A DNA stretch of 64,000 nt from Hyalangium versicolor (lineage in GTDB: Bacteria; Myxococcota; Myxococcia; Myxococcales; Myxococcaceae). Location of the stretch: the NCBI RefSeq assembly GCF_020103695.1, contig NZ_JAHXBF010000037.1:1-64000 (forward strand), written 5' to 3'. Every line of letters starts with the position of its first letter. Within the stretch, counting starts at the first letter, position 1. The notes beneath the pieces were generated by a model, which did no database searches, was not told the DNA's origin, and saw nothing but the letters and a program-made list of their open reading frames with translations. This document shows, piece by piece, positions 34,877 through 37,390 of this stretch. The translations under genes and the position numbers were made by a program.

Positions 34877-35374
34877 ATGGGACCCTTCGACATCCTCACG
34901 GAGCAGCACCGGGAGCTGGAAGATCAGCTCGAGGCATTCGAGTCCGATGAGGGCCCACGCGAAGCCCAGACGCAGCGGGAGCGGTTCGAGGCGCTCGCCG
35001 AGCTGCTCCGGCTCCATACCTGGCTCGAGGAGCGTTACCTCTCCCCGCTGCTCACTCGCGTGGAGGGGCGGGGGCGCGCCTGCCAGGAACGGGAAGAACA
35101 CCTCACCATGAGCGAGCTCATGGAAGAGCTCGAGGAGTTCGAGCCCGAGGCCGATGAGTGGTGGGCTCGCCTCACGGCCCTGGAGGATCTCATCGTCGCC
35201 CATGCACGCCAGGAGGAGCTGGAGACCTTCCCCCGGCTCGACGCCACGCTCGAGCCCGAGGAGCAGGATTCCCTGCGCCGAGCACTCCTCGGGCTGCGGG
35301 AGCAACTGCTCTCGCGGCCGTCATCCCTGTCGGGTAACGGGCCTTCATTCGAAGAAAACTCAGGGAATGCGTGA
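34877..35374 (+). CDS. Hemerythrin HHE domain protein
   Basis: The product has 165 residues. It starts MGPFDILTEQHRELEDQL and carries HTWLEERYLSPLL, EREEHLTMSEL and VAHARQEELETFPRL, the spaced His/Glu residues of a four-helix di-iron hemerythrin. It would bind oxygen, nitric oxide or iron in the cytoplasm. The end is Ser/Asn-rich. The gene is divergent from the acyltransferase. Confidence 0.9.
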   Translation: MGPFDILTEQHRELEDQLEAFESDEGPREAQTQRERFEALAELLRLHTWLEERYLSPLLTRVEGRGRACQEREEHLTMSELMEELEEFEPEADEWWARLTALEDLIVAHARQEELETFPRLDATLEPEEQDSLRRALLGLREQLLSRPSSLSGNGPSFEENSGNA

Positions 35375-35509
35375 CTCGCGACACAACTCTTTGTAAAGAG
35401 ATTCGACAATCTCTCTCTTGAGAGCTATTGAGCGTTTCGAGCGTTCTCACGCTTGATTCACCAAGTCTCACCCACACATTCACATACCCAGTAAGGAGTT
35501 CCCCCCAAC

Positions 35510-36016
35510 ATGTCTGTCGACAAAGCGTTTCGGGAGATGATTCGCAACGAGATCGAGGTCCAACTCAAGCCCCTGCGCGCGGTGATTTCGCGGCTGGAGG
35601 CCGGCACGTCGGACCTGGACGCGTTGCGGGATGTAGCAGAGCGTCTGGCCCCCGTGGCCCAGGCGATGGCGCCGCTGTTTGGCGCTCCGGCGGCGAAGCC
35701 CATCAAGCGGGGCCCCGGCCGGCCGGCGAAGGCGGCCGCGCAGCCTGTCAGCACGGGCGGCAAGCGCCGTGGCCGCAAGCCGGCGTCGGATGGTTCGCGT
35801 GAATGCGCAATCATCGGCTGCGGCTCGCCGAGCCGCACCAAGGGCTACTGCGCCGCGCACTACCAGAAGCTTCGCATGCTGACGAAGACGAACCGTCGGC
35901 CCTCCGCGTGGGTGGACTACGCGCCGCCCAACAGCGTGGAGGACATCCGTCTTCCCCGTGGCCGCGCCGCCGCCAAGGCGCTGGCCCAGGCGGCTCAGGG
36001 CGGCAGCTCAACCTGA
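35510..36016 (+). CDS. AT-hook protein with a Cys/His knuckle
   Basis: The product has 168 residues with a clear ribosome-binding site (TAAGGAGT, 12 bases upstream). An N-terminal helical part (FREMIRNEIEVQLKPLRAVI) precedes two AT-hook-like blocks, KRGPGRPAK and KRRGRKPAS. Then comes CAIIGCGSPSRTKGYCAAHY, whose C-x4-C...C-x2-H spacing suggests a zinc knuckle. It is likely a chromosome-binding protein. I know of similar annotated proteins in myxobacteria without a defined role. The upstream gap 35375-35509 has an AGATT-cgac-AATCT hairpin. Confidence 0.8.
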   Translation: MSVDKAFREMIRNEIEVQLKPLRAVISRLEAGTSDLDALRDVAERLAPVAQAMAPLFGAPAAKPIKRGPGRPAKAAAQPVSTGGKRRGRKPASDGSRECAIIGCGSPSRTKGYCAAHYQKLRMLTKTNRRPSAWVDYAPPNSVEDIRLPRGRAAAKALAQAAQGGSST

Positions 36017-36040
36017 TACGTCTGTCGCGATTTACGAAAC

Positions 36041-36116
36041 GTTGAGACAGTTCCCCGCCGGACAACGGCCCTTGTCCACCCCACCGGGGGGGTGAGGTAC
36101 GGCGGACTGTCTCAAC
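36041..36116 (+). ncRNA. Three-way-junction-like structured element
   Basis: The outer arms GTTGAGACAGT..CCGCC and GGCGGACTGTCTCAAC pair over 16 bp with one 3-base bulge. Inside are two hairpins: GGACAA-cggccc-TTGTCC (36060-36077) and a GC-rich stem ACCCC/GGGGT (36078-36093). The 76 bases fold as a compact branched unit between the AT-hook gene and kynA. It could be a leader RNA, a transcript end or a mobile hairpin element; the sequence does not decide this. Confidence 0.45.
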
Positions 36117-36210
36117 CACACGAGGCCAGGGTCGCCACGGTTTCACGCCGGGCACCCTGGCCTCTGTCTTTTCGCCCCACGCCCATTGCGCCGGGAGGGC
36201 TCCTGGGGGC

Positions 36211-37089
36211 ATGAATGCTCCCCTCATGAACAAGCGCGAAATGGAGCCCGGCATCCTCACGGAGCTCGCCGGCCATACCACTTACGGAGAATATCTGCAG
36301 TTGGATCGCCTGCTGGCCACGCAGGTGCCGCGCTCCCAGCCGCCCCACCATGACGAGATGCTGTTCATCATCCAGCATCAGACGAGCGAGCTGTGGATGA
36401 AGCTGCTCATCCACGAGCTGACGGCGTGCATCCGCTATGTGCAGTCCGACAAGCTGGAGCCCTCCTTCAAGAGCTTCTCCCGGGTGGGCCACATCCAGCG
36501 CATGCTCTTCGAGCAATGGAGCGTGCTGGAAACGCTGACACCCAACGAGTACCTGGAATTCCGCGCTGCCCTGGGACACGCCTCGGGCTTCCAGAGCTTC
36601 CAGTACCACGCCGTGGAGATGCTGCTGGGCATGAAGGAGCCCAAGGTGCTGGGGCCCTTCAAGCACGTGCCCGCCCAGTATGCGGAGCTGGAGCGGATGC
36701 TCGAGTCTCCCAGCCTCTATGATGAGTTCCTCCGGCACCTGGCCCGCGTGGGCCACCCCGTCCCCGCCGACCGCGTGCAACGCGACTGGCGCCTGCCCTA
36801 TGAGCGCAGCGAGCAGGTGATGGAGGTGTTCCGTCGCATCTACGAGAACACCGAGAAGCACTGGGATGCCTATGAGATGTGCGAGAAGCTGGTGGACACC
36901 GAGGAGCGCTTTCAGCTCTGGCGCTACCGCCACATGATGACGGTGATGCGCATCATTGGTTTCAAGCAGGGCACCGGGGGCTCCTCGGGTGTCACGTTCC
37001 TGCGCCGGGCGCTGGATACTCGTTTCTTCCCGGAATTGTGGGATGTGCGTACGGAGCTGTCGCCGCCCCAGACCCGGCGGACCCCGTAG
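36211..37089 (+). CDS. kynA: Tryptophan 2,3-dioxygenase
   Basis: This haem enzyme opens tryptophan to N-formylkynurenine, the first step of tryptophan breakdown. The 292-residue product begins MNAPLMNKREMEPGILTELA and contains HTTYGEYLQLDRLL, FIIQHQTSELWMKL, the ASGFQSFQYH block and RHMMTVMRIIGFKQGTGGSS, all diagnostic of the family. It is a stand-alone gene with the branched structure 95 bases upstream. No other kyn gene is adjacent. Confidence 0.95.
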   Translation: MNAPLMNKREMEPGILTELAGHTTYGEYLQLDRLLATQVPRSQPPHHDEMLFIIQHQTSELWMKLLIHELTACIRYVQSDKLEPSFKSFSRVGHIQRMLFEQWSVLETLTPNEYLEFRAALGHASGFQSFQYHAVEMLLGMKEPKVLGPFKHVPAQYAELERMLESPSLYDEFLRHLARVGHPVPADRVQRDWRLPYERSEQVMEVFRRIYENTEKHWDAYEMCEKLVDTEERFQLWRYRHMMTVMRIIGFKQGTGGSSGVTFLRRALDTRFFPELWDVRTELSPPQTRRTP

Positions 37090-37193
37090 CATTTTTCATC
37101 CATGCATTAGAAAGACGCACTCCGGAAGGCGGGAGGGGTGCCATGCATTCAGGCCGATAGGCGAGACGGGCCCTAGTTTGAGAGGTTGAAAAC

Positions 37194-37208
37194 CCTTTCA
37201 TCGAAAGG
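37194..37208 (+). promoter_or_regulatory. Hairpin covering the ribosome-binding site
   Basis: CCTTTC-atc-GAAAGG forms a 6-bp stem that pairs with part of AAAGGAG, the ribosome-binding site (37204-37210) of the gene at 37217. It could lower translation of that gene. This is inferred from base pairing only. Confidence 0.4.
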
Positions 37209-37216
37209 AGCCCATC

Positions 37217-37390
37217 ATGGCCGAGCATGAGAACCCTCGTCCGGAGCCGCGGTTGCCGGAGGATGAGGAGCGCATCAAACGTCAGGCGGGAGAGAGGCCC
37301 GTCCCCACGCCGGGGCACATCGGCAACCTGCCGGATGATGCGCCGGGGCCTGGCAAGCCTGTCGTCTTCCCGCCACGTGAGCCGGAGTGA
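37217..37390 (+). CDS. 57-residue Pro/Glu-rich small protein
   Basis: The ATG at 37217 is 6 bases after AAAGGAG, the clearest ribosome-binding site in this region. The product is highly charged and Pro-rich (EHENPRPEPRLPEDEERIKR, GHIGNLPDDAPGPGKPVV). It has no membrane helix or signal peptide and looks disordered. Its stop overlaps a GTG that opens the RMD1-family frame. The function is unknown. The strong start region and codon bias make it a real gene. Confidence 0.75.
   Translation: MAEHENPRPEPRLPEDEERIKRQAGERPVPTPGHIGNLPDDAPGPGKPVVFPPREPE

Follow-up and report, generated by a model that had tools for sequence, protein, structure and literature searches.

What is the strong inverted repeat in front of kynA in Hyalangium versicolor? 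The repeat lies in the window, the whole stretch of 64,000 nucleotides analysed here (contig NZ_JAHXBF010000037.1), between a small upstream gene and the gene for tryptophan 2,3-dioxygenase (Table 1). A preliminary description made from the letters alone offered three answers: an amino-acid-sensing leader of kynA, a transcript end or a MITE-like unit.

The element, the second hairpin and the flanking genes

The P1 arms GTTGAGACAGT (36041-36051) and ACTGTCTCAAC (36106-36116) form 11 perfect pairs across 54 nt, and six further pairs (CCGCCG/CGGCGG, 36055-36060/36100-36105) are possible beyond a 3-nt bulge. The coordinates and the symmetry of the element were thus correctly given at the outset, and the pairing at its tips is indeed perfect, although over 11 bases and not 10. 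The minimum free energy (MFE) of the element RNA is −43.1 kcal/mol (z −4.22), which none of 200 dinucleotide shuffles reached; the minus strand folds with −44.8 kcal/mol (z −4.66). Competing folds of three kinds differ by no more than about 2 kcal/mol: the MFE structure, whose hairpins occupy 36057-36069 and 36070-36097, a junction fold of −41.9 kcal/mol with GGACAA/UUGUCC and CACCCC/GGGGUG hairpins, each of 6 bp or nearly so, and an unbranched fold of −41.1 kcal/mol. A fold energy as good as that of the element or better was found for 43 of the 7,991 76-nt windows of this GC-rich region. The window also has six perfect inverted repeats of 11-mers whose arms are separated by 20-80 nt (0-5 in ten shuffles), two of which are the element and the hairpin directly after it. 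The fold is therefore unusual but not unique in the window. According to the folding calculations, the inverted-repeat element is a real folded RNA segment.

The preliminary description noted that a T tract is missing. This holds for the bases directly after the element's own stem, which read CACACGAG and contain no U-rich tract, but a U-tailed hairpin, overlooked there, begins five bases further on. Its stem-loop GAGGCCAGGGT...ACCCTGGCCTC (36122-36164) is stable and GC-rich (−37.3 kcal/mol and z −6.34 for 36122-36172) and is followed by TGTCTTTT, with six T in the eight bases after the arms. Judged by its sequence, this second hairpin has the form of a good intrinsic terminator; a simple terminator scan detected only its inner part.

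The motifs GPGRP and RGRKP in the upstream protein are, we presume, AT-hook-like and its Cys/His stretch zinc-finger-like; the protein has no match in Pfam or NCBIfam. The kynA product also matched TIGR03036 (E 5e-112), although its score of 373.5 bits lies below the cut-off of 390.7. Its conserved N-terminus begins at Met6 (base 36226). The start codon is uncertain within 36211-36226, the homology in many relatives running from Met6, and some relatives have an additional upstream ATG, apparently out of frame. The stop codon of the upstream gene and kynA are 194 bases apart. The element sits 24 nt past this stop codon and, as first described, 94-95 nt before the annotated ATG of kynA (36211).

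Table 1 Features of the kynA upstream region (coordinates in the window)
Feature	Position	Strand	Remarks
Upstream gene, 168 aa	35510-36016	+	ORF; AT-hook-like and Cys/His zinc-finger-like stretches (by eye)
Structured element	36041-36116	+	Outer stem P1 = 36041-36051/36106-36116
P2, 5' strand, CCGCCG	36055-36060	+	Partner 36100-36105; compensatory changes in relatives
GGACAA motif, inner edge of P2	36060-36065	+	Kept with small changes in 8/8 genomes
Inner hairpin P3	36070-36097	+	5' strand CCUUGU here, CCUCUC in the other seven genomes
Intrinsic-terminator-like hairpin, GAGGCCAGGGT...ACCCTGGCCTC then TGTCTTTT	36122-36172	+	11-bp perfect arms
CCATTGCGC box	36183-36191	+	8/8 genomes, 40-43 nt ahead of the conserved Met codon of kynA
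kynA, tryptophan 2,3-dioxygenase	36211-37089	+	PF03301, E 4e-63

Copy number, spread and pairing among relatives

The element is present in one copy in its own genome (13.56 Mb). The arm sequence GTTGAGACAGT occurs at only four places, two of which are the element itself, whereas the other two are isolated. Neither a second full-length copy nor an empty site in a sister strain was found. A covariance model (R1) built from four relatives gave convincing matches in 4 of 39 genomes, the same four and always at the kynA locus; it recovered the orthologous site weakly in L114 (E 0.019) and not in L112, L113 and L115. Of the 96 family genomes, a sequence pattern search hit one, at the kynA locus as well. 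Weak R1 matches elsewhere (G039:C1:457384, G048:C159:5497 and G003:C5:43220, L170-L172; E 0.1-0.8) were taken as chance.

MITEs and REP sequences carry terminal inverted repeats, and the perfect 11-bp arms give the element the same appearance. A MITE, a REP-like sequence or another mobile or repeated unit would be expected in several copies, however, and this element is single and occupies the same place in eight genomes, the further arm matches standing alone and the model and pattern searches being convincing only at the kynA locus. We regard the chance of a mobile or repeated unit as negligible, and the MITE-like identity proposed earlier was rejected. A retron msr-msd, a kind of unit for which Stigmatella is known, was considered as a further candidate.

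When the intergenic DNA was compared with 59 genomes by BLAST, the matches listed beyond its own site were all short and at chance level; the orthologous sites were located through kynA and the upstream protein instead. The kynA gene was found in 90 of the 96 family genomes, and an orthologue of the upstream gene adjoins it in 41 of 43 loci (tblastn). The corresponding position carries a hairpin of 62-80 bases in each of the seven genomes of the genus and in L114, a genome from a neighbouring genus. The other genera that were examined keep the gene pair but have different hairpins, and the element was not detected in front of their kynA genes.

The eight genomes share a common core, P1 - P2 - GGACAA motif - P3, arranged along one long axis. 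The outer stem reads GAGACAG/CUGUCUC in L112-L115 and GAGC or GGGC with GCUC in L116-L119. GGACAA, with small changes, is kept in all eight genomes and CCUCUC in seven, while the surrounding stems change; in most relatives CCUCUC sits inside the P3 stem. When the folds were read by eye, no side branch was seen within P2 in L114 and L116-L119, the side hairpins along the axis in L113 and L115 measured only 2-4 bp, and two sizeable hairpins were seen only in the source sequence. The three-way junction with two hairpins, as originally drawn, therefore survives as a near-MFE fold of the source species and is not the shared shape. In L113 and L115, an extra small hairpin (ACGT..GTC gtga GAC..ACGT) was noticed by eye just past the upstream stop codon, and the same hairpin appears degraded in the source sequence (36017-36040).

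The base pairs were counted on hand-cut helices, as the 3' half came out misplaced when consensus folds were computed from MAFFT alignments. In these hand-aligned helices from eight genomes, a procedure which favours structure, pairs were intact in all 48 cells of P2, five of whose six columns contain at least two pair types, in 45 of 49 cells of P3 and, for P1, in 27 of 28 cells in one lineage and 16 of 16 in the other. Support from RNAalifold, run on plain sequence alignments, was weak, probably owing to the same misplacement of the 3' half. In an alignment-free comparison, arms paired better with their own partners than with swapped ones from other species, the true combination standing at rank 2 of 40,320 permutations with hand-cut arms and at rank 1,968, a borderline result (about 5%), with mechanically cut arms. 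The full-length elements folded better than their shuffles in seven of the eight genomes (p < 0.02; 0.07 for L116), with z values from −1.6 (L116) to −4.4 (L114). When 86-nt cuts were used, L113 and L116 were not exceptional (19 and 11 of 88 locus windows as good, respectively). The plus strand was more stable than the minus strand in six of the eight genomes (−304 versus −247 kcal/mol in sum), which is what an RNA transcribed in the same sense as the two genes would show; the exceptions were the source sequence and L117. Taken together, the pairing, arm-swap, shuffle and strand comparisons moderately support a plus-strand RNA structure maintained by selection. The compensatory changes sought in homologous regions were thus found, on a hand alignment and within a narrow lineage; they favour a structure and are no proof of a sensor.

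Anchoring to the upstream stop codon and the TTGC box

P1 starts 27 nt past the stop codon of the upstream gene in each of the four L112-type genomes and 37-39 nt past it in each of the four L116-type ones, whereas the distance from the end of the element to Met6 of kynA varies (112, 110, 60, 112, 92, 88, 75 and 75 nt). Within each lineage, the position of the element is therefore fixed with respect to the stop codon upstream.

Another sequence keeps its place relative to kynA. A TTGC box 35-40 nt before Met6 was found in 41 of 55 family intergenic sequences, against 3.3 expected. It is present with or without the element, also in genera lacking the latter, and in the source sequence it stands downstream of both hairpins. 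The genus has it as CCATTGCGC, Corallococcus/Myxococcus as CTTGCGC or CTTGCTC and the g8 genomes as CTTGCGG. The fixed distance implies that kynA carries a fixed signal of its own nearby. The box probably marks kynA's own start region, and its position at 36183 suggests that kynA starts later than the element. It is likely to be a family-wide start-region or operator signal. Read by eye as a sigma-54 promoter, the box has a suitable GG-to-GC spacing in several g8 sequences, whereas the spacing does not fit in the other genera inspected. A scan of 35300-37300, which covers sigma-70-type promoters only, gave no promoter-like site.

A transcript end and its alternatives

Of the three answers offered, the transcript end fits best, since the element is tied to the upstream stop codon and has a terminator-like hairpin directly after it. 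We consider it probable that the upstream AT-hook/zinc-finger-like gene ends in a structured 3'-UTR/terminator region to which the element belongs. This reading rests on the constant distance to the stop codon within each lineage and the variable one to kynA (60-112 nt), the hairpin that follows, the retained pairing, the plus-strand advantage, the terminator-like hairpins in other relatives and the TTGC box beyond both hairpins. Transcription would pass through the upstream gene and the extended hairpin and end at the U-tailed hairpin (36122-36172). The folded tail may help to define and protect the 3' end of the upstream message and keep transcripts from running into kynA, which would start from its own signal near 36183. 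We infer that the element is co-transcribed with the upstream gene, that termination takes place there and that kynA is started separately. The element resembles intrinsic (Rho-independent) terminators and 3'-UTR hairpins in being a GC-rich intergenic hairpin near a stop codon, followed by a U-tailed hairpin, and in keeping its pairing while its sequence drifts. It differs from intrinsic terminators in having no U tail, in its length (76 nt, longer than usual) and in retaining GGACAA. Several observations speak against the 3'-UTR reading: the terminator hairpin follows the element in only three of the eight genomes, the element itself has no T tract, the arm-swap test with mechanically cut arms was borderline, RNAalifold support was weak, and the minus strand folds better in the source sequence and L117. 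If the 3'-UTR reading is true, the element is an ordinary gene-end structure and a warning that a strong inverted repeat before a metabolic gene need not be a leader.

A regulatory 5' leader of kynA would require a promoter upstream of 36041, with the element sensing tryptophan or kynurenine or binding a protein and the hairpin 36122-36172 serving as the expression platform that stops transcription before kynA. Element, terminator and kynA follow one another as in a transcriptional attenuator, the GGACAA and CCUCUC motifs are kept, and the conserved structure with compensatory changes that a leader should have was seen, although on a hand alignment of eight genomes within one narrow lineage. 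Structured RNA and a terminator hairpin ahead of an amino-acid gene are likewise features of amino-acid attenuators and riboswitches such as the trp leader, the T-box and the lysine or glycine riboswitches. The element differs from these in its narrow spread and variable distance to kynA, and neither a leader peptide nor an aptamer core was recognized. Moreover, the pairing of kynA with the upstream gene is family-wide, yet the element was found in only eight genomes, and conservation upstream of kynA in related genera was not seen with R1, which matched convincingly only its four source genomes among the 39. The terminator half is absent from five of the eight genomes, the element is anchored to the upstream stop codon and not to kynA, the kynA-linked TTGC box lies downstream, and no sigma-70-type site was detected by the scan. 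Rfam gave no gathering matches in the eight loci, only sub-threshold matches of unrelated families. Given the narrow distribution, the variable distance, the lack of an Rfam match and a terminator half in three of eight genomes, a tryptophan riboswitch is unlikely, and we hold a kynA leader of any such kind, including the amino-acid-sensing one originally suggested, to be improbable. A purely DNA-level inverted repeat, with the 11-bp arms as binding sites of a regulator, e.g. for autoregulation by the upstream protein, is more doubtful still. The arms are perfect and both strands fold in the source sequence, but the arms are 54 nt apart, their sequence is lost in L116-L119, and the better folding of the plus strand in six of eight genomes is not something that a DNA site would require.

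The strict retention of GGACAA and CCUCUC exceeds what a plain terminator hairpin needs and hints at something more specific. A small RNA, derived from the 3'-UTR or transcribed independently, might span 36041-36172 and use GGACAA/CCUCUC as its target contact site. The compact folded body with a U-tailed terminator hairpin would suit such a molecule, and the motifs kept amid changing stems (GGACAA with small changes in 8/8 genomes, CCUCUC in 7/8) leave this reading viable; it is nevertheless unlikely, as the U-tailed end occurs in three of eight genomes only and CCUCUC is buried in the P3 stem of most relatives and replaced by CCUUGU in the source genome. Stated more broadly, the proposal is a lineage-specific structured RNA, an extended hairpin with the kept GGACAA/CCUCUC core, which together with the terminator hairpin after it would either supply a small RNA from the 3'-UTR or terminate conditionally, controlling read-through from the upstream gene into kynA; it has a small chance of being correct. 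If it is, a myxobacterial gene of tryptophan degradation would have an RNA switch or small RNA amenable to testing. Nothing on the element 36041-36116 was noticed in the titles and abstract openings of the papers listed.

The hairpin found right after the element in the source sequence, L113 and L115 has no clear T-tailed counterpart in the inspected sequences of L114 and L116-L119. A relaxed terminator scan placed candidates in L114, L118 and L119 only inside or overlapping the element and found none in L116 and L117. Terminator-like hairpins lie between the same two genes in several other relatives, namely the g8 genomes (L146-L151) and the deep relatives L038, L039, L043 and L044. In L146-L151, a GCGGGCC...GGCCCGC hairpin stands directly before kynA and is preceded by a long hairpin of the GGACC...GGTCC type followed by TTCTT.
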